64,000 nt of DNA, taken from assembly GCA_946186205.1 (NCBI GenBank), contig CAMHMH010000007.1, positions 62,001-126,000 of the forward strand. Reading direction: 5' to 3'. The notes under the pieces were generated by a model. That model searched no databases and had not been told where the DNA came from. It worked only from the letters and a program-made list of their open reading frames with translations. The stretch's first letter is position 1; each line of letters opens with the position of its first letter. Position numbers and translations under genes: made by a program. This document shows, piece after piece, positions 20,630 to 36,393 of this stretch. The stretch comes from an uncultured Fretibacterium sp. Lineage in GTDB: Bacteria > Synergistota > Synergistia > Synergistales > Aminobacteriaceae.

Positions 20630-20636
20630 TTTCTAT

Positions 20637-20972
20637 TTAGCCGGTGATTCGTGAAAGTGCCTGATATGCGTCAAGGAACTTGTTGCGAATCTCCATCACT
20701 AACCGCAAGGCCGTATCTGCCCTCGACGACGCAAGCACTACTTCTGATATGTCTTCCGTGTCGCCTATCGCTAAATTTCGTATCTTGGTTTCTGCTTCAA
20801 GCTGGAGAGAGTTTACTTTCTTTATAGAGTCTGAAAGCATATCTTCAAATGACACTTGCGGAGTTTCTTTCTTTTCTCGGCTGTCCGTATATGTACTGTA
20901 AACACTTCTTGCGGCTCTTTGTGTTCCGTTTTGTCCGTAAACTTGTGAAAAATCTATTAACAGACGCTCCAT
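20637..20972 (-). CDS. fliE: Flagellar hook-basal body complex protein FliE
   Basis: Junction protein between MS ring and rod. 111 residues, with the conserved C-terminal half: VNSLQLEAETKIRNLAIG, then DISEVVLASSRADTALRLVMEIRNK and LDAYQALSRI. It is the first gene of this operon. The usual upstream neighbours flgB and flgC are absent; instead an intergenic stretch of about 720 bp lies upstream. Confidence 0.95.
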   Translation of the reverse strand: MERLLIDFSQVYGQNGTQRAARSVYSTYTDSREKKETPQVSFEDMLSDSIKKVNSLQLEAETKIRNLAIGDTEDISEVVLASSRADTALRLVMEIRNKFLDAYQALSRITG

Positions 20973-21286
20973 TTATATATAAGCCTCCCGGTCAGATAAT
21001 TTATTTTTTTCGCTCCGTCGATATGCTTCATTTTGTTGTGATTTATTGTGCGGGAAGTCCGTCTGCCGTCATCCTGACATAACACACGGCCATAAATCTT
21101 TTCGCCCCTTATTATTTATCTTACTAATTTTACACCCACAAAGCATTTATTTTTACCGCTCATGAAATTTTAGACTGATAAACTTTTACGCCTGTCAAAT
21201 TCACCGGGCGCAAAGCATTCGTATTATACCTTGAGTTTCATAATGCTGTGTCAGTATCTTAGACATGTGAAAGAAATTTGTGAATA
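20973..21286. other. Intergenic region between the divergent flagellar and envelope operons
   Basis: No gene is visible in this AT-rich stretch. It must hold the fliE promoter. A weak minus-strand candidate is TTGACA (complement of 21195-21200) followed after about 18 bp by TCTAAA. No convincing sigma-28 or sigma-54 element was found by eye. Confidence 0.3.
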
Positions 21287-21576
21287 GCTCCTGAGTCACT
21301 TGGTACTGATTCGACGATTCATTTTTCAGACACTAAAAACGTACCTTCAAGCCTAAAATGTTTTTGCCGATTCGCTCCTGAGTCACACGGGACTGATTCG
21401 GCGATTCATTTTTGGTATGCTCAAAACGTACCTGCAAGCCCAAAATATTTTTGCCGATTCACTCATGACTCACACGGAAGGGATTCGGCGATTCATTTTC
21501 CGTACGCTAAAAACGTACCTTCAAGCCCAAAATCTTTTTGTCGATTCACTCATGAGGCACACGGAAGGGAATCAGC
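21287..21576. repeat. Tandem 87-bp repeat, three full copies and a partial fourth
   Basis: Units start at 21287, 21374, 21461 and 21548, an exact 87-bp period. Each contains a CTCxTGAxTCAC block, GATTCGxCGATTCATTTT, AAACGTACCT and CAAGCC-AAAAT. Because 87 is a multiple of three, copies 2-4 are open in one frame as a 29-residue repeat (LKTYLQAQN...), but copy 1 has a stop and there is no ribosome-binding site. A non-coding role is therefore more likely. Confidence 0.9.
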
Positions 21577-21693
21577 AATTAAAATCCGCAAGCACAAATT
21601 TTTTCATGCCATTATAATTATTGCATCGCATTTTATTCAGGCACAAACAGTTTTGTATGCTGTGTCAAAATTTGAAAGGAGAGATTTTTTCAC

Positions 21694-23292
21694 ATGAAGC
21701 AATCTGCCTTCCCTCTGCTTTTGCTCTTCGCGCTAATAATTTCAGTAGGCACTTCAAACGCTGTTGAGATTCCGCAAAAATATTCGGCGCAGATCTCAGC
21801 GGTTGACTTCTACCCATCGGGCGCAAAATTCACATTCGCTGTCGAACCCCAAGGGACTAACGGAAATTTTACGGCCATAATACCCGGCGCATTCAGGGCG
21901 GACTCGATAAGGCTCGCAAATCCTGAGAGTGTTTACGGAGATATTTACGTCGCGACTTATCCCCGGACAAAATGGATACCGCCGCAAATTGAGCCGCTCT
22001 GGCTTCAGATAAAATCGCAGGAACAAACCGTAAATGACCTCAACGCGAGGAAGCAATCACTTGAACAGACTCTGAACTTTCTGAAAAACGCAAATCCCAA
22101 AAAGGCAACTCCCGGTGAGCTTCTCAACTTCATAAAGGAAGCGCAAAATGTCAGGCTTGAAACTGAGAATGAGCTTTCACGAATCAAAGCAACTCTTTCA
22201 GATGAGCAAGAAAAACTGAGGCTCTTAAACGCTGAACTGAACAGCAAGACTCCAGGCAGCGCAAACAGCTTTATCGTTGTTACGGGGCAGGCAGGAGGGA
22301 CAGTATATCTTGAGGCGTTCACGGAGTCAGCTTCATGGCGGCCGCGCTACACTCTCAACCTTACGACGCTCAACAGCTCCGTAGAAGTCAAAATGTACAT
22401 AAGGGCATCGCAGAAAACGGGACTCGATTACACCGGAAATATGACGCTTCACACAAAGAACCCTGACGAAAGAATAACGACTCCCGAAATTACCCCGCTC
22501 AGAGTCGGCATAAAACCAAAAGAAGAAGTTGTAGCGAAAATGTCAGGCATGAGTCTTTCACGTACAAACAAGCAGTTCAGATCCGCAAGAATGGCAATGA
22601 ATGAAGCAGCTATGTACATGGCCGATGAAGACGCAATGATGGAGGAAGACGAAGCACCTGCTGCGCCGAAAGCCCCGGCAGTGCGTGAGACGTTAGCGGA
22701 CAGGACACTTGATATTGACGGAACACTTGCGGGCGACGGAACAGAACGGGACTTTGAAGTGATAATGAGTGATTTGTACCTCGACAGCAAGATAGAAATC
22801 ACGTTGATTCCCGAACAGAGAAATGACGCATGGATTATCGCGAGCATGGACGAGAAGAATCAGCATTTGATTCCTGGCGAGGCGGAACTGAGAGTCGACA
22901 ATCATTCGTCAGGGAAGATATATCTTGAGGAGTTCGGAAAAGGACAGAGGCGAATCCCCTTCGGCTATGCGAATCAGATCACGGCCAAGAAGGAAGCACT
23001 CATAGAGAAGACTGGAGTCTCATGGTTCAGCGGAGTATTCACAAGCGGGTACAAGCTCGAAATCACGAACGGAATGAAGGAAGACCAGACTATTATTGTG
23101 AAAGACCGTCTGCCAGTTCCTACCGATGAGAAAATCAAACTTGAAGTGAAACGGATTGAGCCAAAAGAGAAATCACGCGACAAAGAGAACCGACTCACGT
23201 GGGAGATCACAGTGCCTGCGGGAGCAACAGTGCCGATAATTGTCGACTACACACTGAGCTACCCGTCAGGCGAGGAGCTGCAATATAAATAA
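21694..23292 (+). CDS. DUF4139 / MuiA-family secreted protein
   Basis: 532 residues. A signal peptide (about 1-23, LLLLFALIISVGTSNA) is followed by the DUF4140-type beta N-domain, a coiled coil at about 105-185, and the DUF4139 beta-rich C-terminal region with the diagnostic 'GGTVYLEAFTESASWRPRYTL'-like block and 'TLHTKNPD'. A Met/Glu-rich acidic linker lies near 300-325. The family includes mucoidy inhibitor A; its biochemical role is unknown. AAAGGAG precedes the ATG. First gene of a long envelope operon; the next gene begins on its last base. Confidence 0.88.
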   Translation: MKQSAFPLLLLFALIISVGTSNAVEIPQKYSAQISAVDFYPSGAKFTFAVEPQGTNGNFTAIIPGAFRADSIRLANPESVYGDIYVATYPRTKWIPPQIEPLWLQIKSQEQTVNDLNARKQSLEQTLNFLKNANPKKATPGELLNFIKEAQNVRLETENELSRIKATLSDEQEKLRLLNAELNSKTPGSANSFIVVTGQAGGTVYLEAFTESASWRPRYTLNLTTLNSSVEVKMYIRASQKTGLDYTGNMTLHTKNPDERITTPEITPLRVGIKPKEEVVAKMSGMSLSRTNKQFRSARMAMNEAAMYMADEDAMMEEDEAPAAPKAPAVRETLADRTLDIDGTLAGDGTERDFEVIMSDLYLDSKIEITLIPEQRNDAWIIASMDEKNQHLIPGEAELRVDNHSSGKIYLEEFGKGQRRIPFGYANQITAKKEALIEKTGVSWFSGVFTSGYKLEITNGMKEDQTIIVKDRLPVPTDEKIKLEVKRIEPKEKSRDKENRLTWEITVPAGATVPIIVDYTLSYPSGEELQYK

Positions 23293-24440
23293 TGGGACAG
23301 AATAACTTTCTCAAGTGGATAACGATACCGCCCGTTGTCGCGATATTCACCATAATGATGGCGCGCGCGATGGGAGTCGGAAGCATTGTAGGAGAAGTAG
23401 ACATAGCGATATGGGGGTTAGTGTGGCTTCTCTTTATCGTTATGAGCATTCTTTACGGACTGTTTATAGTACACGGCTTCAACATCGGCTTAATATCCCT
23501 TCAGGCACTTGCTCAGGGAGTATTGCTCTGCCCTATGTCGATAACGTACGGTGCGAGGATGTTCCAGTGGCTCGGAGTGATAATAGCTGTTTGCGGAGGA
23601 GCAGCCCTTCTTGTTGCGTATCATCAGGAGGAGAACGAGCGCAATAAAGTTATCCCTGTTGAAGTTGAGAACGACGTGAAGAGAATCCCGGCTAATTTTG
23701 CAATAACTGATGACACCGGGGCGATATTGAATCTCACTGAAGACATGCTAGAAATTTTAGGGATAAACCGTATGTCATCTGTTGGGAAAAATATATCTGA
23801 GTGGTTCAGCCCTGTGTCAAAGACAGCGGAGATCAACGGAAAAATCTGGGACATTGAGCGCAAGAGCATCGATGACGGAAAACGATTCTATTTTGAGCTC
23901 AGGCCTAAAGGACTCCCGGTAACAAATGAAGAGAGCCAGAATGAATCCTCCGGGCCGGCTGAGTTCATAGACCCTGACACACAGCTTCACACGTACCGTT
24001 ACGGGATGGCGAGAATCTCTGATGAGCTTTACAGGGCCGGGAGATATAACCATCCTTTGAGCGCGTGCATGATACGCATAGTATTTCCGCAGTTATTGCC
24101 GGATGATGACATGGACAAATACGTTCGTCCTTTCCGTGCGTACTGCGCGAGGGTCATGAAGGACACAAGGCAGTCTGACACCGTGATACAGGCCGGGGAG
24201 TCTCAGATAATGGCGGTGTTCTCTGAATGCCCGTATCAGATGATTGAAAGCATAGTAGAGCGTCTGACATCAATCGTGAATGCGTTGTGCCCGACGTTTG
24301 AAGAATTTCTGCATGTTACAGTGCTGAATGTATTTGAGACATTCGAGGGAGGCACTAACCTTCCTACAGCGCAGGAGCTTGTAGACAAACTTACACAGCA
24401 GATGACCCGCAAATATTCTGCTACAGCATTATCGCAATGA
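23292..24440 (+). CDS. Membrane protein with PAS-like and degenerate GGDEF-like domains
   Basis: 382 residues. Four hydrophobic segments lie in the first 110 residues, then a PAS-like region (about 135-210, AITDDTGAILNLTEDMLEILG). The C-terminal domain (about 225-375) starts like a diguanylate cyclase (DPDTQLHTYRYGMARISDEL). In place of GGDEF it has 'AGESQIMAVF', so cyclic-di-GMP synthesis is unlikely. It may act as a sensor or nucleotide-binding scaffold. Its stop overlaps the next gene (ATGA), placing it in the lipid A/LPS operon. Confidence 0.65.
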   Translation: MGQNNFLKWITIPPVVAIFTIMMARAMGVGSIVGEVDIAIWGLVWLLFIVMSILYGLFIVHGFNIGLISLQALAQGVLLCPMSITYGARMFQWLGVIIAVCGGAALLVAYHQEENERNKVIPVEVENDVKRIPANFAITDDTGAILNLTEDMLEILGINRMSSVGKNISEWFSPVSKTAEINGKIWDIERKSIDDGKRFYFELRPKGLPVTNEESQNESSGPAEFIDPDTQLHTYRYGMARISDELYRAGRYNHPLSACMIRIVFPQLLPDDDMDKYVRPFRAYCARVMKDTRQSDTVIQAGESQIMAVFSECPYQMIESIVERLTSIVNALCPTFEEFLHVTVLNVFETFEGGTNLPTAQELVDKLTQQMTRKYSATALSQ

Positions 24441-25540
24441 GAAGAAGTTTACTGAATAAATTAATACTTGGCGCATGTGCCGGGCCTTTCATGTTCGGGA
24501 TATTAATTTTTGTGCTGATATTCGTTGCGGGAGATTTATTGTTTCAGGCTGCAAAGCTGATCATTGAGCAGGGAGTCTCATTCAGTGTTGTGACTCGTCT
24601 TTTCTTTTACCGACTCCCGGAAGTAATTGTTATGACGATTCCGATGTCCTCGCTTCTATCATCACTCTTGGGAATGTCGACGCTTAACGGAGGCAGCGAG
24701 CTTATAGCGTTAAAGTCGTTGGGGATTCCTTTCACGAGAATCTTGCGGCCTATATTCTTTGCGTCAATTATGATTTCGCTGATAGGTTTCGGACTGAATG
24801 AGACCGTTGTTCCGTTCGGTGCAATTGCGGCTGATAGACTCATGAAATTTGAGATCATGAAGCATCAGGCATCAGTTGTACAAGAGAAAGTGTTCCTTCG
24901 CGACGAGGAGAACGGGAAATTGAAGCGTGTGCTTTATATCGATGAGCTTGACCCGGAGAAGGGACTAATCAGCGGAATAATGATGCATGAATTTGATGAT
25001 GAGGGGAGACTCTCTCATACGTTGAACGCACGTCGCGGGACTTGGCGTGACTCTCAATGGTGGGTTGAGGACGGAAGAATGTATGACGTTGACCGTGAAG
25101 GAGAGATACGGCTTCTGATTCGTTTTGAGCGTCAGAGACTCGCAATCAGGATTTCCCCGGAGCAATTGCAGAACAGCACACGGAGACCGGCGGATATGAG
25201 CGCGCATGAATTATGGAGCTACATAAAGCAGATGGATGAAAGCAGCTCTCAGCTCTCGCAGTTGTGGGTAATGTTCCATCTGAAAGTCGCAGTCCCTTGG
25301 GCTTGTCTGATAATGGCGGTGTTAGGAGCGTCATTCGGTGCTGCAAGGCGGGGGCGTTCAGGTGGCGGCGTTGGTTTCGGAATAAGCGTAGTGATTGTCT
25401 TTGCGTACTATGTTGTTATGTCATTGTGCCGTGCATTTGGTGAGGCTGGCGCGCTTCCTCCGTTCATTGCGGGGTGGGGTCCTAACCTCGTGTTTCTCGT
25501 TGCAGCTCTGTACTTTGCGCGGAGGGTCGATACTGTTTGA
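24437..25540 (+). CDS. lptF/lptG: LptF/LptG-family LPS export permease
   Basis: Inner-membrane component of the LptB2FG complex that extracts lipopolysaccharide. 367 residues with the family's split layout: three membrane helices in the first 120 residues (including the ETVVPFGAIAAD turn), a periplasmic beta-jellyroll (about 130-260, GLISGIMMHEFDDEGRL), and three C-terminal helices. LptF and LptG cannot be told apart here. Only one copy is in the window. Directly coupled to lpxI (TTGA overlap). Confidence 0.9.
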   Translation: MRRSLLNKLILGACAGPFMFGILIFVLIFVAGDLLFQAAKLIIEQGVSFSVVTRLFFYRLPEVIVMTIPMSSLLSSLLGMSTLNGGSELIALKSLGIPFTRILRPIFFASIMISLIGFGLNETVVPFGAIAADRLMKFEIMKHQASVVQEKVFLRDEENGKLKRVLYIDELDPEKGLISGIMMHEFDDEGRLSHTLNARRGTWRDSQWWVEDGRMYDVDREGEIRLLIRFERQRLAIRISPEQLQNSTRRPADMSAHELWSYIKQMDESSSQLSQLWVMFHLKVAVPWACLIMAVLGASFGAARRGRSGGGVGFGISVVIVFAYYVVMSLCRAFGEAGALPPFIAGWGPNLVFLVAALYFARRVDTV

Positions 25541-26352
25541 GCATAGCACTTATAGCCGGAAGAGGAGTCCTGCCTGTCGAGATTGCCCGGAGACTTTCGG
25601 CCATTCAGAAGCCGGGATTGATTCTGACTCTCGGCGGTGAAATCGAATCGCTCAGGCCGTTTTCAGGTAAGCTCATAGAGATGAGGACTCCCAATCTTGG
25701 CCGGGCTGTCCGTGAAATGAAGTCTTACGGAGCAGACAAAGTAATCATGGCCGGGACAGTCGCAAAAAAATTCATATACTGCCTTCCGTTACTGTTTGAT
25801 TCTCTGAGCCGTTCTGTTCTTCGCAGGAGTCTTCATGATGATCATTCATTGCTTGGTGAGATTGTGAAGTCCTGCGAGGAAGCCGGAATATCTGTTATCC
25901 CTTACTGGCAGATACTCCCGGAGTTTATAGCATTACCCGGAAGATTATCATCACGCTCACCGTCAGCAAAAGAAATTTCCGACATCAATTATGCACGCGA
26001 CATACTGAGAGTCATACTGCCTTGTTCATTCGGTCAGGGCGTATGCGTTGCTGATGGATCTGTTGTTGCTGTCGAGGCGATGGAGGGAACAGACAAAATG
26101 ATTCAGAGGGCTGGCGAAATCTCCGGGCGCGGCGTTGTCGTGAAGATGATGAAAGAGAACCAAGACATGAGGTATGACTTGCCTACAGTCGGAACGGTTA
26201 CGCTTGGGACTATGCACATGGCCGGGCTTACGTGCCTTGCTGTTGAAGCGAGTAAGACATTAATACTTGAGCCGGATAAATTTTTTGCGCTCGCAGATAA
26301 ATATAACATTGCTGTTTGGGGAATAGACAATGCAGAAGAAATTTCATGTTGA
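25537..26352 (+). CDS. lpxI: UDP-2,3-diacylglucosamine pyrophosphatase LpxI
   Basis: Converts UDP-2,3-diacyl-GlcN to lipid X, the step before LpxB, by a mechanism unrelated to LpxH. 271 residues of the DUF1009/LpxI family: IALIAGRGVLPVEIAR at the start, the 'GADKVIMAGTVAK' block at about 66-78, and the C-terminal 'GRGVVVKMMKENQDMRYDLPTVG' plus 'THMAGLTCLAVEA'-type region. The start is TTG overlapping the upstream stop, with GGAGGG about 10 bases before it. It supports a diderm host with LPS. Confidence 0.93.
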   Translation: MSIALIAGRGVLPVEIARRLSAIQKPGLILTLGGEIESLRPFSGKLIEMRTPNLGRAVREMKSYGADKVIMAGTVAKKFIYCLPLLFDSLSRSVLRRSLHDDHSLLGEIVKSCEEAGISVIPYWQILPEFIALPGRLSSRSPSAKEISDINYARDILRVILPCSFGQGVCVADGSVVAVEAMEGTDKMIQRAGEISGRGVVVKMMKENQDMRYDLPTVGTVTLGTMHMAGLTCLAVEASKTLILEPDKFFALADKYNIAVWGIDNAEEISC

Positions 26353-27967
26353 TGATGATGACTCAAAACTGAAGGAAGCACTCGAATATATACATGAACA
26401 GCTTGAAGGATTGAATCTGAAACCGAGAGACTCAATACGCGCTGAGTTAATGTGCGAGGAGTCATTAGTGAGCCTAATGAATCACGCAAATTTTTCCGGG
26501 CTGTCATATTTCAGTGTGAACGTCAGAAAATTTTTCGGCGATTTGATTATTGATTTGTGGGTTCCTGGCGAAGAGTTTGAATTTTCCGGGGCAGTTGAGC
26601 TTTCACCGCTTAAGGATAACGATGCCCTTCAAGAGTCTTACGAGTCAATTCAGCGTCTTGTGCTTCATTCGTTCACGCAGTACATAAGGTACAGGCACTC
26701 AGGGAAAATCAACACTGTAAGGATCAAGGCAGTACGCTCTAACTATTCGGGGATATTCAAGACACTTGCGGCGTTATTTCTTGCTGTTGTTTCGGGATTG
26801 CTTCTGAGAACTTTTGCTCCTGAGTCCGTATCTTTGTTCCTCAACGATAATATTCTCGTGCCAATACGCTCGGTGTTCCTTAACGGCCTTAAGATGTGCG
26901 CTGTACCGATAGTGTTCTTCTCTGTCGTGTCATGTATTGCGGACATTGGCGGGCTTTCGGGAATCAAACAGGCGGGCGGAAAGCTCATCAAGTATTTCAT
27001 TATCGCCAACATTCTTGGACTCGCTGTTGGTTTGTGCATAATGTATATATTCAGGCCGGGCGAGGGCGTGAACATGTCGGCAGCATCATATGAGACTGTG
27101 AAGACTCAGCCGCTTTCATTAGCCGGGAATCTCGTTCACATTGTCGCGGGGAATATCGTCAGGCCGTTCCTTGAAGGGGACATGCTTCAGATAATGGCGA
27201 TTGCGTTCTTTGTGGGACTGGCAATATCACTCACGGGCGCGAAAATGACACGCAAATTTTCCGGCGAGCTTAACATGATATTCATGAAGATAACAGAAAT
27301 TTTCTTGTACATGGTTTATCTTGTAGTGTTCTGTTCGGTTGCCTCGATGATAATCACGACAGGAGCGGGGACTCTCTTTTCAGCTGCGGGAGTAATCTTC
27401 ACGCTGACCGGCGGCCATGTAATAATCTTTGTGCTTCACTGTTTGGCCGTGAAATTCTGCGCGAAACTGAATCCCTTCACGATGATACGCAAATCTGTTC
27501 CCTTGCTCGCAACATCATTCAGCACTTGCTCAAGCATAGCGGCAATTCCTGACGCGCTGAAATGTTCTGCTGATATGGGAATACCGTCATCGCTGTATTC
27601 TTTCTCAGTCCCTTTAGGATTGTCATTAGGCAAAGCAGCAACACCGGTTTATTATTGTGTGATGGTTTTTTCGGCGGCAAATCTTTACGGCGTTAATATT
27701 GCTCCGTCATTAATCGTCTCGCTTTCCGTAACAATTCTCCTCCTGTCAATCACAACTCCTGCGATGCCCGGCTCAGGGATAATATCTCTGTCAGTTCTTT
27801 TGACGCAGGCCGGATGCCCCCTTGAGTTTATCGGATTGGCTGTGAGTATTGAGATGATTACAGACTTTACCGCGACGATGACAGTATCATTCGGAAATTT
27901 AGCCTGCACACTTCTTGCTGCGGCCGATGAGAATATTCTTGACCGCGAGAAATTCAACCGTCCGTAA
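26330..27967 (+). CDS. SLC1-like membrane protein with GHKL-like cytoplasmic N-domain (paralog 1)
   Basis: 545 residues. Residues 1-90 form a soluble domain resembling a degenerate GHKL/anti-sigma-kinase ATPase fold: an AELMCEESLVSLM helix in the N-box position and DLWVPGEEFEF in the G1 position. A linker helix (95-140) leads to an SLC1 (dicarboxylate/glutamate:cation symporter) membrane domain from about 145. The serine motif survives as TCSSIAAIPD. The NMDGT loop is replaced by LGKAAT (about 433) and the C-terminal substrate site lacks the usual Arg and Asp (TDFTATMTVSFGN). It may be a sensor or altered transporter. Overlaps lpxI by 23 bp. Confidence 0.75.
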   Translation: MQKKFHVDDDDSKLKEALEYIHEQLEGLNLKPRDSIRAELMCEESLVSLMNHANFSGLSYFSVNVRKFFGDLIIDLWVPGEEFEFSGAVELSPLKDNDALQESYESIQRLVLHSFTQYIRYRHSGKINTVRIKAVRSNYSGIFKTLAALFLAVVSGLLLRTFAPESVSLFLNDNILVPIRSVFLNGLKMCAVPIVFFSVVSCIADIGGLSGIKQAGGKLIKYFIIANILGLAVGLCIMYIFRPGEGVNMSAASYETVKTQPLSLAGNLVHIVAGNIVRPFLEGDMLQIMAIAFFVGLAISLTGAKMTRKFSGELNMIFMKITEIFLYMVYLVVFCSVASMIITTGAGTLFSAAGVIFTLTGGHVIIFVLHCLAVKFCAKLNPFTMIRKSVPLLATSFSTCSSIAAIPDALKCSADMGIPSSLYSFSVPLGLSLGKAATPVYYCVMVFSAANLYGVNIAPSLIVSLSVTILLLSITTPAMPGSGIISLSVLLTQAGCPLEFIGLAVSIEMITDFTATMTVSFGNLACTLLAAADENILDREKFNRP

Positions 27968-27993
27968 AAGTTTTCACAGAAAGAGGCTCTAAC

Positions 27994-29316
27994 ATGCAGG
28001 AAAAATTTACGGTGAATGACTCAGACAACGGGGAAGCCTTAGCAAGCGCGCTCGGATTCATTCGTGAGCAGCTCGGAGCAATGAACCTCAAACCGAAAGA
28101 GTCATCACACGCCGAACTTATGTGCGAGGAAGCATTGACTCTCTTAATGAGTCACGCGGATTTCTCCGGGCGGCCATACTTCAGAGTCAGTGTCAGAAAA
28201 ATTTTTGGCGATGTGATCATTGACCTTCGAGTCCCCGGCCATGAGTTTGAATTATTCGGAGCTGTGCAAAACATTAACGGCGTTATTACTCGCTGCAGTG
28301 TCGGGACGCCAATGAAGTCTTTTGCGCCTGAGTCTGTCTGCATGTCGGTCAACGATAATATTCTTGTCCCGGTTCGCACGATGTTCCTGAACGGCTTGAA
28401 GATGTGCGCTGTTCCTGTCGTATTCTTCTCGATTGTCTCATGTATTGCTGACATGGGCGGCATTGCCGGGATAAAACGGACTGGCGGGAAGCTCTTCAAG
28501 TATTTTGTGATGTGCCAGGTGTTAGCGTTGCTTGCTGCTTTCGGCTTCATGTATATGTTCACTCCGGGCGGGAGCGTTAATGCTGAAGCTGTAACTAATA
28601 CATTGCAGGCTTCTTCCTCTCTCAATCTGATATTCACGAAGATCACAGAGTTTTTCATGAAGATAGTTACACTCGTCATATTTTGTTCGGCGGCCTCAAT
28701 GATAATCACAACAGGAACAAGCACAATACTTTCAGTCATCGGCATCGTGTGGAAACTACTTGCGGTTCACGCGATTGTGTTTGCGGCTTTGTGCCTCGCT
28801 GTGAAATTCTCGGCGGGTCTCAGTCCTTTAACACTGCTTAGGAAATCTCTTCCGATGTTCACGACAGCATTCAGTACTTGCTCAAACATTGCCGCGATTC
28901 CTGACACAATGAAGTGCGCGGACTCTGTTGGGATTCCTTCCTCGCTTTATTCGTTCTCGATTCCTGTAGGAACATCGCTGAACAAGTCAGTAACATCATT
29001 GTATTACTCGGTGATGGTTCTTTCGGCAGCTCACATTTACGGCATCAATATAACTCCGTCGGCAATGCTTCAGCTTATGGCATCGATAGTGCTTCTTTCA
29101 TTGACGACTCCAGCCCTGCCCGGCTCGGGGGTAATCTCTCTTTCAGTTCTTCTTGTGCAGGCAGGATGTCCCGTTGAGTTTGTCGGAATTGGAGTGAGCA
29201 TTGAGATGATGACGGATTTTGCTGAGACAATGAACGGCTGCTTCGCGAACATGGTATGCACTCTCTTTGCGGCAGAGCGTGAGAATCTTCTTGACCGTGA
29301 AAAGTTCAACGCATGA
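27994..29316 (+). CDS. SLC1-like membrane protein with GHKL-like N-domain, internally deleted (paralog 2)
   Basis: 440 residues and in frame throughout, but two blocks present in the flanking paralogs are missing. One is a block of about 60 residues covering the linker and first membrane helix (after LFGAVQ). The other is about 45 residues around the next transmembrane segment (after LQASSS). The N-domain (AELMCEEALTLLM, LRVPGHEFEL) and the C-terminal hairpin and helix regions remain. The NMDGT position reads LNKSVT. The deletions would disrupt a normal SLC1 fold, so it is either decaying or acts without transport. Starts 26 bp after paralog 1. Confidence 0.7.
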   Translation: MQEKFTVNDSDNGEALASALGFIREQLGAMNLKPKESSHAELMCEEALTLLMSHADFSGRPYFRVSVRKIFGDVIIDLRVPGHEFELFGAVQNINGVITRCSVGTPMKSFAPESVCMSVNDNILVPVRTMFLNGLKMCAVPVVFFSIVSCIADMGGIAGIKRTGGKLFKYFVMCQVLALLAAFGFMYMFTPGGSVNAEAVTNTLQASSSLNLIFTKITEFFMKIVTLVIFCSAASMIITTGTSTILSVIGIVWKLLAVHAIVFAALCLAVKFSAGLSPLTLLRKSLPMFTTAFSTCSNIAAIPDTMKCADSVGIPSSLYSFSIPVGTSLNKSVTSLYYSVMVLSAAHIYGINITPSAMLQLMASIVLLSLTTPALPGSGVISLSVLLVQAGCPVEFVGIGVSIEMMTDFAETMNGCFANMVCTLFAAERENLLDREKFNA

Positions 29317-29343
29317 AGAACAACAACATCAGGAGGCTATAAA

Positions 29344-30981
29344 GTGTACAAAAAATTCAAGGCTGACGAAAACAAAGACAATGCCGTGAAAGAAGCCCTG
29401 CAATATATCAGAGACTCTCTCTCAAGCATGAAGCTGAAACAAAAAGACTCAGACCGCGCGGAGCTTATGTGCGAGGAATCATTGACGGCCTTAATGAGTC
29501 GCGCTGATTTTTCCTCACAACAATATTTCGCTGTGAACGTGAGAAAGTCATTCGGCGATGTGATTATCGATCTCAGAGTCCCCGGTGATGAGTTTGATTT
29601 TTACGGCAACGCTAAGACCCCGTACCAGTATGAAGACTACGAGCTTCAAGACGCGCAGGCAGCAGTACAGAGTATACTTCTTCGATCGTTCGGCCGCTTC
29701 TTGAGTTACAAGCATCATCATCAATTCAACACTGTAAGAATAAAGGCTGTGCTCTCGAATTATTCCGAGCTGTACAAAATCTTGACGATACTGTCCCTCG
29801 CAATAGTTTCAGGATTCGTGCTGAGAAACTTTTTCCCGGAGTCTGTATACATGGCCGTCAACGATAACATATTCGCGCCAATACGAACCATATTCATGAA
29901 CGGACTCAAGATGTGCGCGATGCCTGTTGTGATGTTCTCAATTGTTACGTGTATTTCAGAGATGGGCGGCGTGTCAGGGATTCAGAAGTCGGGCGGAAGA
30001 CTCATCAGGTACATTCTTCTGTTTCAGGTAGCAAGCACGGCGATAGCTTTCGGACTCATGCACATACTCAGGCCGGGAACGGGAGCAAACATGATCGCGT
30101 CTTCAGTCGAGACAGCTCCGAGTGAGTCAGTGTCATTGATGGGAATGCTGATGAATTTAGTCCCGTCGAATCTCATACGGCCATTGCTTGAAGGCGACAT
30201 GCTTCAGATTATAGTTATCGCTGTGATTCTGGGAGTCTCTGTCGGCTTGGCGGGCGCGAAAGCTCTGCGGGGGATTTTCGGTGAGCTTACCGCCGTTTTC
30301 ATGAGGGCGACAAGAATCTTCATGCTCATAGTTCCTCTTGCTATATTCTGCTCGGTCGCATCGATGGTAATCACAACGGGGCTTGATACTCTTCTTTCTG
30401 TTCTTGGTATCTTGCTGGCATTCATAGCCTCATATTTCCTGCTGAATGTTTTCTTCTGCCTCGCCGTGAAACTCCGCACAGGGTTAAGCCCTCTCATCAT
30501 GCTGAGAAAATCTATGTCCATGATAGTAACGGCCTTCAGCACATGCTCAAGCATCGCGGTGATTCCCGACGGCATGAAGTGCTGCGACGAGATGGGAATA
30601 TCCCCGAAAATTTACTCGCTGTCGATTCCTCTCTGCACGTCAATAGGCAAGGTTGCTTTCCCCGTAACGTTCACAACAATGACTCTCTCGGCCGCGAATA
30701 TGTACGGCGTAGAGCTTTCAGCGTCAGCGATGATTTCTCTTGCGTTCTCAATAATCGTTCTGACAATCTCAACACCGGGACTACCGGGCGCAGGGATAAT
30801 AGCATTGTCCGCGCTTCTCTCACAGGCCGGGTGTCCTCTCGAATTTATCGGAATAGCAATCAGTCTTGAGGCAATAGATGACTTGTTCAACACCCCGACA
30901 ACTTGCATGGGTAATGTTGCCTGTACGATTATTGCGGCTGATGGTAATAATCTCATCGACAGGGAAAAATTCAGCGCATGA
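29344..30981 (+). CDS. SLC1-like membrane protein with GHKL-like N-domain (paralog 3)
   Basis: 545 residues, starting at GTG with an AGGAGG site. Same layout as paralog 1: N-domain with AELMCEESLTALM and LRVPGDEFDF, helical linker (100-140), then an SLC1-like membrane domain including TCSSIAVIPD. The NMDGT equivalent is IGKVAF and the C-terminal site reads DDLFNTPTTCMGN, again lacking residues that bind dicarboxylate and Na+ in known symporters. The stop overlaps the lpxB start by 4 bp, so the three paralogs are an integral part of the lipid A operon. Confidence 0.75.
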   Translation: MYKKFKADENKDNAVKEALQYIRDSLSSMKLKQKDSDRAELMCEESLTALMSRADFSSQQYFAVNVRKSFGDVIIDLRVPGDEFDFYGNAKTPYQYEDYELQDAQAAVQSILLRSFGRFLSYKHHHQFNTVRIKAVLSNYSELYKILTILSLAIVSGFVLRNFFPESVYMAVNDNIFAPIRTIFMNGLKMCAMPVVMFSIVTCISEMGGVSGIQKSGGRLIRYILLFQVASTAIAFGLMHILRPGTGANMIASSVETAPSESVSLMGMLMNLVPSNLIRPLLEGDMLQIIVIAVILGVSVGLAGAKALRGIFGELTAVFMRATRIFMLIVPLAIFCSVASMVITTGLDTLLSVLGILLAFIASYFLLNVFFCLAVKLRTGLSPLIMLRKSMSMIVTAFSTCSSIAVIPDGMKCCDEMGISPKIYSLSIPLCTSIGKVAFPVTFTTMTLSAANMYGVELSASAMISLAFSIIVLTISTPGLPGAGIIALSALLSQAGCPLEFIGIAISLEAIDDLFNTPTTCMGNVACTIIAADGNNLIDREKFSA

Positions 30982-32108
30982 AAATTTTTGTGTCATGCGG
31001 AGAAGTCAGCGGTGATATTTACGCGGGAGGATTCATCCGCGAGGCTCTGAAGGTTTCACCGTCAGCAGAAATTTACGGCATGTTAGGCCCTGAAGGAGTC
31101 AAAGCCGGAGGAGTCGAACGATGGAGCTATGACGAGTTAAAGCTGATGGGACTGCTTGAGATTATCCCGGCCATTCCGAGAATCTTGCGCTTGAAGAGGA
31201 ACATTGCCCGCGAGATCATGAGGACGAATCCCGACTCGGTTGTTATGATCGACAGCCCTGACTTTCATTTGATGCTCGCAAAGTCTCTCAGGCGTTCGGG
31301 GTATTCAGGCAAGATAGTTTATATCAGTCCTCCTACTGTATGGGCGTGGCGTTCAGGAAGAGTCCGCAATCTTAAACGCGATTTTGATTTCTGCCTGCCT
31401 CTGTTCTTGTTTGAGCATGAGTATCTTAAAGCTCACGGCGTTAAATCGTTATGGCAGTCTCATCCTTTAGTCCACGAAATGAAGAGCGTGAAAGTTTCTG
31501 AGTCATTCACGAAGCGTTACGGCAATGAAAGAGTCATAGCGTTAATGCCAGGGAGCCGGCACTACGATATACGCTTTCACCTCGATATACTCATCGGTGC
31601 TGCTGGGATGCTGCGGACAAAAGGATATTGCCCAGTGTTTTCTGTTGCTGAAGGACTGAATACGAATCTTGCTAACGAGGTTCGGACTCGAGTCAGTGAT
31701 TCGGGCTTTGAGTACTGGGACGGAAGCGGGCGCGAGTTAATGCTTGGCTCTCTCGCTGTCGCCGGCGTGTCTGGTACTGTGTCGGTTGAAGCAATGATGC
31801 TCGGAAAATTCATGACAGTCATCTACAACATGAGGCCGATAAACTATGCCATTCTGAAACGTCTCGTGCGAGTCAAAAACATCTCAATCCCCAACATGCT
31901 GACCGACAGAATCATTTACCCCGAACTGCTTTGCGGTGATGCGACACCTGAGAGGATTGCACGTGAGCTTGAGAATTATCTTGACGATGAAACTTTGAGG
32001 CATGAGATTGACTCTGAGCTTCAGAAAGCGCGGGCATCAATGGGAGATTCAAACGCCGCGAAGTTTTGGGCTGAGTCGGTTTTGAGTCGCAAGAGTCTTA
32101 ATGTGTAA
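30978..32108 (+). CDS. lpxB: Lipid-A-disaccharide synthase LpxB
   Basis: Joins UDP-2,3-diacyl-GlcN and lipid X to make the lipid A disaccharide at the inner membrane (GT19). 376 residues with the family start FVSCGEVSGDIYAGG, the 'SPPTVWAWRSGRV' block at about 118-130, 'MPGSRHYDI' near 192, and 'SGTVSVEAMMLGK' near 262. Coupled by ATGA overlap to the third SLC1-like gene; lpxI lies five kilobases upstream in the same operon. Confidence 0.96.
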   Translation: MKIFVSCGEVSGDIYAGGFIREALKVSPSAEIYGMLGPEGVKAGGVERWSYDELKLMGLLEIIPAIPRILRLKRNIAREIMRTNPDSVVMIDSPDFHLMLAKSLRRSGYSGKIVYISPPTVWAWRSGRVRNLKRDFDFCLPLFLFEHEYLKAHGVKSLWQSHPLVHEMKSVKVSESFTKRYGNERVIALMPGSRHYDIRFHLDILIGAAGMLRTKGYCPVFSVAEGLNTNLANEVRTRVSDSGFEYWDGSGRELMLGSLAVAGVSGTVSVEAMMLGKFMTVIYNMRPINYAILKRLVRVKNISIPNMLTDRIIYPELLCGDATPERIARELENYLDDETLRHEIDSELQKARASMGDSNAAKFWAESVLSRKSLNV

Positions 32109-32147
32109 TTAACTCGTAACATTTTTCCCGGCGTTAGTGTTATTATG

Positions 32148-32178
32148 CCTCCGTTCCAAAAATTTTATAGGGCGGAGG
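32148..32178 (+). promoter_or_regulatory. Hairpin covering the ribosome-binding site of the Ni/Co transporter operon
   Basis: CCTCCG (32148-32153) can pair with CGGAGG (32173-32178), which is the ribosome-binding site of the gene starting at 32187. It could control translation. It is also followed by TTTTATTT and could act as a weak terminator for lpxB. Confidence 0.45.
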
Positions 32179-32186
32179 TTTTATTT

Positions 32187-32969
32187 ATGCCTAAACATTT
32201 ATTCATTCTTGTGCTTGCTGTCGTTCTTATGGCAGTACCGGCATTTTCACACGAGCTGACAATCAAAGCTCACAATACGGCCATGAAGGAAGGCGAGTCA
32301 TTCCCCGCAACAGTCCAATCATCTCACAAGTTCATTGTCCCGGAAGAAGTCGAAATCCTTGAACGAGTCAAAGCAGGAATCATTGAGGACGGAAAATTTG
32401 TACCTTCCGAGCTCAAAGCGAACGAGAAAGATTTATGCATCGATTTCACCGTAACACCCAAAGATTTATCGCAGTCAGTGATTCTTGTTGCCACGAAAGA
32501 CGGCGAGTCATGGTGCGTAACAAACGAGGGCGGGAAATCAGGAGCGCGAAAAGATCTCGAGGCTCAGGGACTCAAAGTCATATCCGCGAACAAATACGAC
32601 AAGTACGCAAAGGCCATCTTCAACACGTCGCATGATGACAAAAATTTTGCGTTCGTCGCCGGACATCCTCTTGAGATTATCCCAGTAACGAATCCTTTTG
32701 ACGTTAAGCCGGGGGACTTCATGACGGTGAAAATCTTGCTCAACGGTCAGCCTTACACCGGGCCGGTATGGGCGACATATGACGGATTTGTTACGGAGTA
32801 CGAGAACACATACGCTTATTACACTGAAGCCGAGAACGGAGAAGCTCACGTGAAAATCACTGCTCCGGGATGGTGGGGAATAAGAGCGGCTCAAGAAGGA
32901 CTCCCGGGAGTCGAGGGTGATTATGACAGTCTCAACTTGCGAGCGTTCCTCCTGTTTGAAGTGAAATGA
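32187..32969 (+). CDS. nikK: Periplasmic DUF4198/NikK-type component of a Ni/Co transporter
   Basis: 260 residues from the ATG at 32187, which has GGAGG eight bases upstream. The frame is open a little further upstream, but without a site. A signal peptide (about 1-22, LFILVLAVVLMAVPAFS) is followed by a His at the mature N-terminus (HELTIKAHN), a known feature of metal-binding NikK proteins. The rest is beta-rich DUF4198 with a late 'PGWWGIRAAQ' motif. Found with ECF-type nickel transporters. First gene of a five-gene operon; overlaps the next by 4 bp. Confidence 0.8.
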   Translation: MPKHLFILVLAVVLMAVPAFSHELTIKAHNTAMKEGESFPATVQSSHKFIVPEEVEILERVKAGIIEDGKFVPSELKANEKDLCIDFTVTPKDLSQSVILVATKDGESWCVTNEGGKSGARKDLEAQGLKVISANKYDKYAKAIFNTSHDDKNFAFVAGHPLEIIPVTNPFDVKPGDFMTVKILLNGQPYTGPVWATYDGFVTEYENTYAYYTEAENGEAHVKITAPGWWGIRAAQEGLPGVEGDYDSLNLRAFLLFEVK

Positions 32970-33436
32970 AGGGAAAAATTTTCGTCAGGCTGGCTTTCAC
33001 CGCTGGCCTGATTCTTTTTGCGTCTGATGAAATTTCAGCGCATGGGACTGGCTACCGTCATTCACAGTTTGAAGCAGTTGCGTTAGAGTTCATGTATTCA
33101 ACCGGGGAAGCTATGAGCTATCGTGAAGCAAAAGTGTTTTCCCCCAATGATGAGAAATTTGCGTACCAGTCAGGCAGAACAGATGAGAAAGGGAGATATT
33201 CATTTGTGCCGGACTCGCCGGGAGTTTGGCGCGTTGTCGTACGTGATGAGGAAGGACACCAATGCACAGCGGATATAGTGATAAGTGATACAGCGGGCAG
33301 CAGTCAGGGGGAAAGGGTCAGCAACAATCAAGAGTCGACAATCCCAAACAGAACGGAGATATTCATACGGTCATTGCTCGGAGTGAGTCTCATCTTCAAC
33401 ATTGCGCTAGTCATCAGGAGGAAACATGCACATTAG
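32966..33436 (+). CDS. nikL: NikL-type small component of a Ni/Co ECF transporter
   Basis: 156 residues. It has a signal-like N-terminus, then an N-proximal HGTGYRH with two His that could bind metal. A carboxypeptidase-regulatory-like beta domain (about 40-105, GRTDEKGRYSFVPDSPGVWRV) is followed by a C-terminal membrane helix (about 133-150) ending in basic residues. This is the NikL layout seen next to NikM. Overlaps both neighbours. The assignment rests on architecture and context. Confidence 0.75.
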   Translation: MKGKIFVRLAFTAGLILFASDEISAHGTGYRHSQFEAVALEFMYSTGEAMSYREAKVFSPNDEKFAYQSGRTDEKGRYSFVPDSPGVWRVVVRDEEGHQCTADIVISDTAGSSQGERVSNNQESTIPNRTEIFIRSLLGVSLIFNIALVIRRKHAH

Positions 33437-34016
33437 CGAGGGAATATTATCGGGCGGAGTCTTGGCTGTTGGCTGGGCAGGAACAATCGCGGGAGTCTCT
33501 TACGGACTCAGGAAGACGAACACGGACAAAATCATTCAGACCGCGTTAATATCGTCAGCATTCTTCCTCGCGTCCCTCGTGAATATACGCACAGGCCCTT
33601 CATCAACTCACCTGACACTCCTTGCACCGATGGGACTCATTCTCGGCCATGCTGTATTTCCGGCTGTGTTCACGGCGTTATTGCTTCAGGCGTTATTGTT
33701 CGGTTTCGGGGGGCTTCTTGTTCTCGGCGTTAATGCGTTCGTGATGGGATTCGCGTCCCTCGCAACATATCTCGTTTTCGGGCGGATGATTCGTAAAGGC
33801 TCATGGGTCATCACAATGTCATTCATGGCCGGAGCGTTTGCTGTCGTGATTGCTGCTGTCATTGCGGGAATGCTCCTGATGATGACGGACTCGAATTTTG
33901 CAGGAGCGGTAAAGGTATTATTCATTGCTCATGCTCCCGTTGCGGTTATTGAGGGTTGTGTAACATCGTTCCTTGTGATGTGGCTGAAGAGAGCCGCGCC
34001 AGAATTTTTGTCATGA
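33426..34016 (+). CDS. nikM: Ni/Co ECF transporter substrate-binding membrane protein (CbiM/NikM)
   Basis: 196 residues with the invariant N-terminus MHISEG, whose free amino group and H2 coordinate the metal in CbiM/NikM, and a second ligand region TGPSSTHLTLLAP around residue 60-72. Six hydrophobic segments. The choice between nickel and cobalt cannot be made from these residues. The NikK and NikL partners favour nickel, while cobU/cobS at 46.5-47.6 kb make cobalt plausible as well. ATGA overlap with the next gene. Confidence 0.9.
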   Translation: MHISEGILSGGVLAVGWAGTIAGVSYGLRKTNTDKIIQTALISSAFFLASLVNIRTGPSSTHLTLLAPMGLILGHAVFPAVFTALLLQALLFGFGGLLVLGVNAFVMGFASLATYLVFGRMIRKGSWVITMSFMAGAFAVVIAAVIAGMLLMMTDSNFAGAVKVLFIAHAPVAVIEGCVTSFLVMWLKRAAPEFLS

Positions 34017-34726
34017 CACGCGATATTTATTCCCTCGAAACTCCCCGCGAAAATCTTTCACAGTCAGCAGAACGAAACCCCGCAGCTGTCCTCATATCCT
34101 CATTGCTTTATGCACTCGCCGTAACCCTAAGCACTAATATATATTCACTCCTCATTGCCTCAATACTGCCCGCAAGATTCATAACCCGCGTGAAACTTTC
34201 TGCACTCGCAAAACTGAATCTCATCAACGCCCTAATGATTCTGACTCTGACTCTCACATGGCCGGATCTTTATGCCGGATTCATAATGGGAGTGATAATT
34301 TCCCTGCGCGTGAACATGATCTGCATTGCCTTTTCTGCGATGGTATATCCTCTTGGGACTTCAGGAATATACGAGGCACTTTGCGTTATGAGAGTCCCGG
34401 AAAAACTGCGCGTGATGATAATCCTGACACTGAGGGGGATAAATATTCTGCGTGAGCGTTACGAGTCTGCAATAATTTCCGTGAGGCTCAGAGCACCGGA
34501 CATACGCGGCTTGATGAGGCTGAAAATTTTTGCGGCCATGATGGGAATGATACTGCTACAGAGTCATGAGCGTTCCGACAACATGATGAAGGCTGTGAAA
34601 TGCCGGGGAGGTTTTGCGGGCTTCATTCAGTCTGAGACTCGCGGGGTCAGTTTTGGTGACGTGGTTTACATTCTGACATTTGTGGTTTACATTTCGATTA
34701 TCGCGGTGATGAATTATTATGCTTGA
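34013..34726 (+). CDS. nikQ: ECF transporter T component (CbiQ/NikQ)
   Basis: 237 residues from the ATG overlapping the nikM stop; an earlier in-frame ATG lies inside nikM and is less likely. Several membrane helices are followed by the two coupling-helix motifs of EcfT-type proteins, 'SVRLRAPDIRG' and 'KAVKCRGGFAG' (the Arg-containing A-R-G pattern), which dock on the ATPase. Confidence 0.88.
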   Translation: MTRDIYSLETPRENLSQSAERNPAAVLISSLLYALAVTLSTNIYSLLIASILPARFITRVKLSALAKLNLINALMILTLTLTWPDLYAGFIMGVIISLRVNMICIAFSAMVYPLGTSGIYEALCVMRVPEKLRVMIILTLRGINILRERYESAIISVRLRAPDIRGLMRLKIFAAMMGMILLQSHERSDNMMKAVKCRGGFAGFIQSETRGVSFGDVVYILTFVVYISIIAVMNYYA

Positions 34727-35423
34727 AGTTGAGAGTCTCTGCTACAAATACCCGGACGGCCATGAAGCACTGAGAGGAGTCAATCTGCGTGTGAATGAGG
34801 GTGAAAAAATTGCTCTTGTCGGCGCGAACGGTTCAGGGAAATCCACGCTCTTATTGCACATTGCCGGAGCTTTTGACGTTCAAGAAGGGCGGATAACTTT
34901 CAGGGGGCGTGAAGGTGCTGACGTTCTTCGGAGTCATGTGGGTCTCACGTTTCAGAATGCTGATGACGAATTGCTGATGCCCTCAGTGATTGAGGATGTC
35001 TCATTCAGTCTCATAGCTTCAGGAATGAGCGCACACTCAGCGCACGAACAAGCGCAGAATATTCTTGCCTCATTGGGTATCTCACACCTTGCCTCGCGTC
35101 CTCCTCATAAACTTTCAGGAGGCGAGAAGAGACTCGTAACCTTTGCGGGAGTCCTTGCGTCAAATCCTGAAGTCCTTGCGCTTGACGAACCTACAGCGGG
35201 CCTTGACCCCAAAGCAAGACGGAGGGTCATAAATTTTCTTCGTGAGACTGACAAAGCGGTAATTCTTGCTACACATGACCTTGATATGGCTATTGATGTT
35301 TGTGAACGCGCCGTGATTCTTCGTGAGGGTGAAATATATGCTGAAGGACTCCTGCCTGAACTTTTCACGGACAAGAATATACTTGAGGCCTGCGGATTAG
35401 AATTACCCCTGCGATGCCAGTAA
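34719..35423 (+). CDS. nikO: ECF transporter ATPase (CbiO/NikO)
   Basis: 234-residue ABC ATPase energising the transporter. Walker A GANGSGKST at 35-43, Q-loop near LTFQNADDEL, signature LSGGEKR at 132-138, Walker B VLALDEPTAGLD at about 152-163 and the switch His in LATHDLD. It ends the operon; only one ATPase gene is present, as usual for Ni/Co-dedicated systems. Confidence 0.93.
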   Translation: MLEVESLCYKYPDGHEALRGVNLRVNEGEKIALVGANGSGKSTLLLHIAGAFDVQEGRITFRGREGADVLRSHVGLTFQNADDELLMPSVIEDVSFSLIASGMSAHSAHEQAQNILASLGISHLASRPPHKLSGGEKRLVTFAGVLASNPEVLALDEPTAGLDPKARRRVINFLRETDKAVILATHDLDMAIDVCERAVILREGEIYAEGLLPELFTDKNILEACGLELPLRCQ

Positions 35424-35502
35424 CTAACATTAATAATTGTTATATAATGGAAAAAATATACAAAGCAGCAGTGTGATACGATTTGAAGGAGACCGAATAA
35501 CA

Positions 35503-36393
35503 ATGTCAATGTTCAGAAGAGCAGAAAGAAGAAAAGCAAAACTCAGGCTGGCGATAACAGGCCCGGCAGGTTCGGGAAAGACTTACGGAGCATTGCTAAT
35601 AGCGTTCGGAATCGGCGGTAAGATTGCGTTGCTTGACACTGAAAACGGGAGCGGTGATTTGTATTCGTCGCTTGGTGAATATGATGTGTGCTCACTCTCA
35701 GCACCTTTCACGATTCAGAAATATATCGATGCGATAAGGGACGCGGAAAATTCCGGCTATGACACTCTCATCATCGACAGCATATCAGCAGAATGGGCGG
35801 GGACAGGAGGACTTCTCAGTCTTCACACTCAGCTGACCTCATCGAACCGGACGAACTCATTCGCGGCATGGGGGCAGATTACTCCCAAGCACAACGCATT
35901 CATTGACGCTATGACAGGCTCAAGGCTTCACATCATCGCTACAATCCGTTCAAAGACAGAGTACGCGCAAATCCAGAACGAGCGCGGAAAAACTGAGGTA
36001 AGGAAGATGGGATTCGGACTCGTTCAGCGCGACGGAATAGACTACGAGTTCACGACAGTATTTGATTTGAGCATGGAGCATACAGTGAGTGTGAGCAAGG
36101 ACAGAACATCAATATTTGACGGGCAAGTTTTCACGATAACAGAAGACACCGGGCGGGTGTTAAAAGAATGGCTTGATACTGGCATAGACGCTCCGCTCGT
36201 CGACAACACGCCGGCTTCAGCAGCAGACAAACGGAGGCTTTACGACGCATACATGAAACTTTTTGACGATGACCCTCAGAACGCGGCCGCAAGAGCGCAG
36301 GAAACAATGACAGCGATAACGGGGGGCAAAGGCTCAAAAGACTGGACTGTTGACGACATCAGAAAACTTGAGGCGGATTTGGCATCACGCTGA
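35503..36393 (+). CDS. Phage-type RecA-like AAA ATPase (AAA_24 family)
   Basis: 296 residues from the ATG at 35503, which follows GAAGGAG. Walker A GPAGSGKTY is near the N-terminus (about residue 22), an acidic ALLDTENG follows, then a Walker B-like strand TLIIDSISAEW and a sensor region with IATIRSKTEY. This is the pattern of Sak4-like/AAA_24 proteins, which in phages act with single-strand annealing or recombination genes. No other phage gene lies nearby. A TATAAT at 35443-35448 suggests its own promoter. Possible prophage relic or domesticated gene. Confidence 0.75.
   Translation: MSMFRRAERRKAKLRLAITGPAGSGKTYGALLIAFGIGGKIALLDTENGSGDLYSSLGEYDVCSLSAPFTIQKYIDAIRDAENSGYDTLIIDSISAEWAGTGGLLSLHTQLTSSNRTNSFAAWGQITPKHNAFIDAMTGSRLHIIATIRSKTEYAQIQNERGKTEVRKMGFGLVQRDGIDYEFTTVFDLSMEHTVSVSKDRTSIFDGQVFTITEDTGRVLKEWLDTGIDAPLVDNTPASAADKRRLYDAYMKLFDDDPQNAAARAQETMTAITGGKGSKDWTVDDIRKLEADLASR

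Follow-up and report, generated by a model that had tools for sequence, protein, structure and literature searches.

We analysed a window of 64,000 nucleotides from an uncultured Fretibacterium sp. (contig CAMHMH010000007.1, positions 62,001 to 126,000), the plus strand of which carries lpxI, three genes that we call P1, P2, and P3, and lpxB, in this order. An initial annotation made from the letters of the sequence had placed three tandem SLC1-like membrane proteins between the two lipid A genes, and both the open reading frames (ORFs) and the Pfam family SDF (PF00375) agree with it: SDF matches P1, P2, and P3 far above its cut-off, with E-values from 2e-54 to 3e-73. LpxI, LpxB, and an LptG-like neighbour are clear by Pfam. 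P1 and P3 are fusions in which a soluble N-terminal domain (N-domain) precedes the SLC1/SDF membrane domain, and P2 is a shorter paralog. The coordinates also agree with the annotated overlaps, which amount to 23 bp between lpxI and P1 and 4 bp (ATGA) between P3 and lpxB. Translational coupling, which had been proposed for the whole row, holds in the strict sense only at these outer junctions, because P1 and P2 as well as P2 and P3 are separated by gaps of 26-27 bp and Shine-Dalgarno-like sequences lie ahead of P2 and P3. Promoter and terminator scans gave scores near those of shuffled sequence, Rfam had no match within positions 20000-36000 of the window, and a search of viral contigs found no relative. 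The relatives named by a genome scan belong to uncultured Fretibacterium and further Synergistaceae, most of which come from the digestive tracts of goats and sheep.

The N-domain and its ATP site

The N-domain comprises about 137 residues, compared with the roughly 90 first estimated, and is cut short in P2. Single-protein sequence searches assign no Pfam or NCBIfam family to the N-termini of P1-P3, so annotation will probably name proteins of this kind plain dicarboxylate symporters. The homology of the domain surfaced only via profile-profile comparison, other members of the family, and structure. The AlphaFold2 (AF2) model of P1 residues 1-140 (pLDDT 82, pTM 0.75) has UsfX, SpoIIAB, and RsbW as its best Foldseek matches, with E-values from 1e-4 to 1e-3. 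VIA-align gave Z-scores of 13.8 (8ih8), 12.5 (1th8), and 11.6 (6m36) over 101-124 residues, and histidine-kinase structures ranked well lower (Z 7-8). The GHKL-like fold that had been proposed for the N-terminus thus stands up to structure prediction and fold search.

Profile comparisons point the same way. A profile built from 28 N-domains retrieves, beyond the fusions, stand-alone proteins of 133-135 aa that adjoin STAS or PP2C genes and are HATPase_c_2 proteins by Pfam; a profile search (A2) of Protein Data Bank (PDB) sequences found no match. In hhalign, the N-domains align with the genus's own stand-alone RsbW-like proteins over 125 columns (Prob 95.3, E 2.4e-8). PF13581 (HATPase_c_2) is matched individually by 10 of the 28 N-domains (best E 2e-4), although these matches fall under the Pfam gathering score and P1 itself is unmatched; any other Pfam family is matched by at most one of the 28. 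In the reverse direction, a search with PF13581 picks out an lpx-linked fusion (E 5.4e-4), the match spanning model positions 6-125. Because UsfX, SpoIIAB, and RsbW rank first in structure and both hhalign and PF13581 lead to the same family, the GHKL subtype can be named: on profile and model evidence, the N-domain is homologous to the RsbW/SpoIIAB-type GHKL domain.

The N-domain resembles RsbW, SpoIIAB, and UsfX in its fold and length, in the succession of its secondary-structure elements, and in having the N-box Glu, the G1 Gly, and the motif of the closing strand; it differs from them in the residues of the ATP site and in being fused to a membrane protein. The blocks A-E-L-M-C-E-E and V-P-G-x-E-F recur across 54 homologs and are therefore not due to chance, and a joint alignment with RsbW-like proteins puts them at the N-box and the G1 box, where they had been placed by eye. 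In GHKL enzymes, the N-box Asn, the G1 Asp, and the G2 glycines hold Mg-ATP. The N-box Asn is present in just 2 of the 54 fusions and the G1 Asp in none (V, I, or A in 52 of 54), and the lid glycines of G2 (GGLG) are gone, whereas the N-box Glu (Glu44 in P1) is kept in 54/54 and the G1 Gly (Gly80) in 53/54. With all three elements lost, ATP binding by the N-domain is unlikely. We therefore rejected the description of this part as a kinase-like or ATP-sensing domain, since the residues of the ATP site are missing in essentially every copy.

Loss of the ATP site is not accompanied by free drift. Compared with orthologs, dN/dS is 0.26 for the N-domain and 0.22 for the SDF half of P1, and 0.23 and 0.20, respectively, for those of P3. 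The N-domain evolves faster than the SDF half, but values of about 0.2-0.26 in both indicate that each half is under purifying selection. P2 has lost two stretches without a shift of frame: the C-terminal part of the N-domain (P1 residues ~93-137) together with the first membrane helix (TM1), and the counterpart of P1 residues ~257-308. Predicted TM1 and parts of TM4 are among what is missing. P2 is probably a decaying copy of the full-length paralog rather than a specialised partner subunit, because it misses helices and has no assigned counterpart in the nearest genomes.

The transporter half

The SDF domain scores 243 bits in P1 and 248 bits in P3, at a cut-off of 27.9. Foldseek of the SDF fold gave a best E-value of 2e-18 and a TM-score to the target of up to 0.88, and the closest solved structures are an ancestral "uncoupled" aspartate transporter (AncInt, 9bgz/9bh0), GltTk, and GltPh. 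The whole SDF fold, D394, and the tips of both hairpins are shared with these proteins; in P1 and P3 the tips are intact, with S-T-C-S-S in HP1 and P-G-x-G in HP2. P1-P3 differ from them in the additional N-domain, in the replacement of R397, N401, and D405, and in the loss of NMDGT with Lys at the place of Met311. The ligand residues in the known transporters are NMD, T314, D394, R397, and N401, and the NMD motif is the hub at which the three sodium ions and the substrate are all coordinated; AncInt is uncoupled though its binding sites are unaltered (PMC12668577). P1 reads GKAAT where NMDGT is expected, with GKA in place of NMD, and has A515, V519, and N523 as the equivalents of R397, N401, and D405; D394 is retained.

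Nearly all Synergistaceae fusions are devoid of NMDGT. The lpx-linked copies carry varied residues at R397 and N401 and mostly Asn at D405, and D394 is retained in 24 of 26. Lys occupies the place of Met311 in 25/26 lpx-linked copies, in 41/54 fusions, and in 2/3 further Firmicute fusions. Set against a sample of 31 unfused SDF proteins from Firmicutes, this makes 43/57 fused versus 0/31 unfused proteins, with a p-value of 3e-13 that is optimistic because the fusions share ancestry. Five fusions have Leu instead (an SLD-type motif) and six retain NM[DH]GT, among them three from Firmicutes (L102, L104, and L105) with NMDGT itself. Loss of the sodium motif is therefore a trend of the family and does not define it. 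On the reading that we favour (see below), ligand binding by the SLC1 body would do without sodium coupling of the canonical kind, Lys435, at the Met311 place, may provide a fixed positive charge, and P1 and P3 may be SLC1-fold carriers. If this is right, they are naturally occurring SLC1 proteins in which the sodium site is remodelled, for comparison with the reconstructed uncoupled ancestor.

Distribution and the lpx operon

In a tree of 54 fusions, all 26 lpx-linked copies fall into one group with 98/98 support, together with one unlinked copy (L096). Since they form one clade, the lpx-linked copies represent a single entry event, and their position is stable in this lineage and not random. 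For the other 28 of 54 homologs we detected no lpxI or lpxB neighbour. The initial annotation had stated that scattered homologs without lipid A neighbours would speak against a lipid A connection; such homologs make up about half of the set, and the linked copies belong to one conserved clade.

In 15 of 61 relatives, lpxI and lpxB lie 1.3-4.6 kb apart on one contig. In three more (G003, G005, and G020), lpxI is followed by a fusion where the contig breaks off, and the phylum search added two genomes with an lpx-linked fusion (L098 and L139). Of the 56 genomes in which one contig holds both genes, 15 have the insertion and 41 have lpxI and lpxB directly adjacent; the 41 comprise 17 from the genus itself and, from 14 other genera, all 24 that could be resolved. 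A conserved, required presence of the fusion with lpxI and lpxB was thus not found. Some lpx-linked copies appear broken, for example in G035 and G026; those at L079:6311-7832 and L095:6001-7666, in two genomes, appear frameshifted or split, by decay or assembly error. The lineage keeps the insertion, yet lipid A synthesis does not need the fusion genes. The simplest account is probably that the lpx operon already existed, took up a single insertion, and saw it duplicated afterwards.

Elsewhere, fusions adjoin genes for Fe-alcohol dehydrogenase, TctA/citrate lyase, or LysR-type proteins (the last assigned by eye). Among Firmicutes we found the fusion in 5 of 291 class-level genomes, one of which also has a stand-alone RsbW-like match, and in at least 3 of 61 phylum-level genomes; the one Firmicute fusion neighbourhood that was inspected has no lpx genes. 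Fusions of Flavonifractor and of Synergistaceae alike adjoin a gene for an iron-containing alcohol dehydrogenase (L102:4581-7629, L075:7181-10422, and L085:3403-6286).

Function of the fusions and neighbouring genes

We favour, with a confidence somewhat above even, the view that P1-P3 represent an SLC1-fold carrier or sensor governed via a non-catalytic, anti-sigma-like docking domain, and that their place in the lpx operon goes back to one insertion. The N-domain would then be a module for protein docking and regulation instead of an enzyme, and would either control or report which elevator state the SLC1 body is in. The STAS/PP2C/RsbW switch of the genus is a plausible class of partners. 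The place between lpxI and lpxB would lead to co-expression with the lipid A genes, with no role in lipid A synthesis. If this is true, these proteins represent a third wiring of a bacterial transporter fold to cytosolic signalling, beside STAS-tailed SulP proteins and SLC5-histidine kinases, and one that runs through a domain whose enzyme activity has apparently been discarded.

Several points weigh against this view. We infer the binding partner, the substrate, and the direction of control, and the link to STAS proteins consists of ancestry and two neighbourhood cases. The association of Lys with fusion is inflated by shared ancestry, and some of the Lys-bearing proteins make up a single clade. 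NMDGT is also missing in an SstT-like SDF protein that the same genome encodes and in several unfused SDF proteins, so that its loss suggests sodium independence rather than establishing it. Finally, an lpx position conserved in about 20 genomes could still signal a functional tie.

Alternatively, P1 and P3 may be plain transporters in which the N-domain aids trimer assembly, stability, or membrane insertion, and which carry amino acids or carboxylates in an atypical, possibly uncoupled manner. The complete SDF domain with both hairpin tips, the NMDGT of the three Firmicute fusions, and the metabolic genes next to some fusions (Fe-alcohol dehydrogenase, TctA, and citrate lyase) are all in keeping with this, but a SpoIIAB-type domain, normally a dimer, is at odds with a trimer, and SLC1 proteins that are not fused manage their assembly with no N-domain. 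We regard this alternative as possible, though rather unlikely.

It is also conceivable, if unlikely, that the fusions are partner-switching transceptors, with an SLC1 body that detects a small ligand and a dead anti-sigma domain that binds a STAS anti-anti-sigma protein or sets it free, so that nutrient state would feed into sigma-factor or phosphatase signalling. RsbW/SpoIIAB-type domains are binders of STAS proteins, and CbrA-like transceptors already pair a transporter with a GHKL kinase (PMC7096432, PMC13022988). Moreover, the window's genome encodes a 283-aa membrane protein (L171:6827-7678) with a related degenerate HATPase-like domain at its C-terminus (E 2.9e-5 against the version on an ABC protein, see below) in an array with genes for STAS, an EamA transporter, two SpoIIE phosphatases, RsbW, and a cNMP-binding ATPase. 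In a different genus of the family (L071:3351-7241), a HAMP-SpoIIE-HATPase_c_2 gene comes after the fusion gene, on the same strand. A GlnQ-type amino-acid ABC ATPase whose C-terminus carries a degenerate HATPase_c_2-like domain occurs in nearly all genomes of the window's genus; together with the 283-aa protein and the L071 neighbourhood, which like it are also in keeping with the favoured view, it gives the only hints on a partner of the fusions. On the other hand, no STAS gene was seen next to P1-P3 or other fusions in the neighbourhoods listed, and known switching relies on ATP-driven phosphorylation, of which the N-domain should be incapable.

An extension of the partner-switching idea, which we put forward as doubtful conjecture, is an SLC1 transceptor family of Synergistota and Bacillota that has given up both sodium coupling (Lys in NMDGT) and ATP binding and relays ligand occupancy to STAS-type partner switching via the dead anti-sigma domain, the same kind of domain having joined ABC amino-acid importers and a further membrane protein in the genus by separate events. 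The remaining proposal, made in the initial annotation, that an ATP-sensing domain and an SLC1 fold tune LpxI and LpxB or report lipopolysaccharide (LPS) precursors, is very improbable and was set aside after the neighbourhood survey: it could draw on the clade-wide place between the two genes, with overlapping ends and 1-3 copies in about 20 genomes, but not on a domain that has lost its ATP residues, a single insertion that 41 genomes do without, or a family with many members elsewhere and some apparently broken lpx-linked ones.

The favoured reading, a carrier or sensor with a docking domain, can be compared with known systems. SulP/SLC26 transporters bear a C-terminal STAS domain. Like them, the fusions join a transporter to one half of the anti-sigma/STAS partnership, but the half that they carry is the anti-sigma one, at the opposite terminus and on an unrelated transporter family. 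The SLC5/STAC transceptors CbrA and CrbS likewise combine a transporter fold and a GHKL-type domain in one chain (PMC7096432, PMC9100948, PMC13022988); these consist of SLC5 and a complete histidine kinase, whereas P1 and P3 consist of SLC1 and a degenerate N-terminal SpoIIAB-type domain. A histidine phosphotransfer domain or SLC5 fold was not found in P1-P3, in which SDF was the only family at significant E-values and the fold is GltPh-like. CbrA-type transceptors and SulP-STAS carriers are the nearest functional parallels, and P1-P3 belong to neither. We found no published description of an SLC1-anti-sigma fusion, in a search that was thin on subscription literature and is hence weak evidence of absence. 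The features are listed in Table 1.

Table 1. Genes, domains, and sites of the locus (positions in the window) and the related ABC ATPase (positions in its own loci).
Feature	Position	Strand	Evidence
lpxI, UDP-2,3-diacylglucosamine diphosphatase	25537-26352	+	Pfam LpxI_C, E 1.5e-43
P1, pseudo-HATPase_c_2 N-domain and SLC1/SDF membrane domain, 545 aa	26330-27967	+	ORF, Pfam, structure
P1 N-domain, residues 1-137, degenerate RsbW/SpoIIAB-type GHKL fold (predicted)	26330-26740	+	AF2, PDB matches, hhalign
P1 N-box region, residues 43-52, EESLVSLMNH; Glu retained, Ser48 in place of Asn	26456-26485	+	
P1 G1-box region, residues 75-84, DLWVPGEEFE; Gly80 retained, Val78 at Asp position	26552-26581	+	
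P1 Lys435 codon, site of Met311 in GltPh NMDGT	27632-27634	+	Alignment to GltTk and ancestral aspartate transporter
P2, shortened paralog, 440 aa	27994-29316	+	ORF, Pfam SDF
P3, full-length fusion paralog, GTG start, 545 aa	29344-30981	+	ORF, Pfam SDF
P3 codon of lysine equivalent to P1 Lys435	30649-30651	+	
lpxB, lipid-A-disaccharide synthase	30978-32108	+	Pfam LpxB, E 4.8e-70
GlnQ-type ABC ATPase with degenerate C-terminal domain	L172:1994-3100 (G000:C2, window's genome); L069:1360-2481		

Two further features flank the locus. Upstream of lptG, positions 23292-24440 encode a membrane protein with sub-threshold GGDEF similarity (E 0.21), which is found at the same place across the genus and is 69-91% conserved. 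Right after lpxB, an apparent cobalt/nickel uptake cluster at positions 32145-35423, also conserved in the genus, consists of a DUF4198 gene and of CbiM-like, CbiQ-like, and CbiO-like genes, these three assigned by eye.

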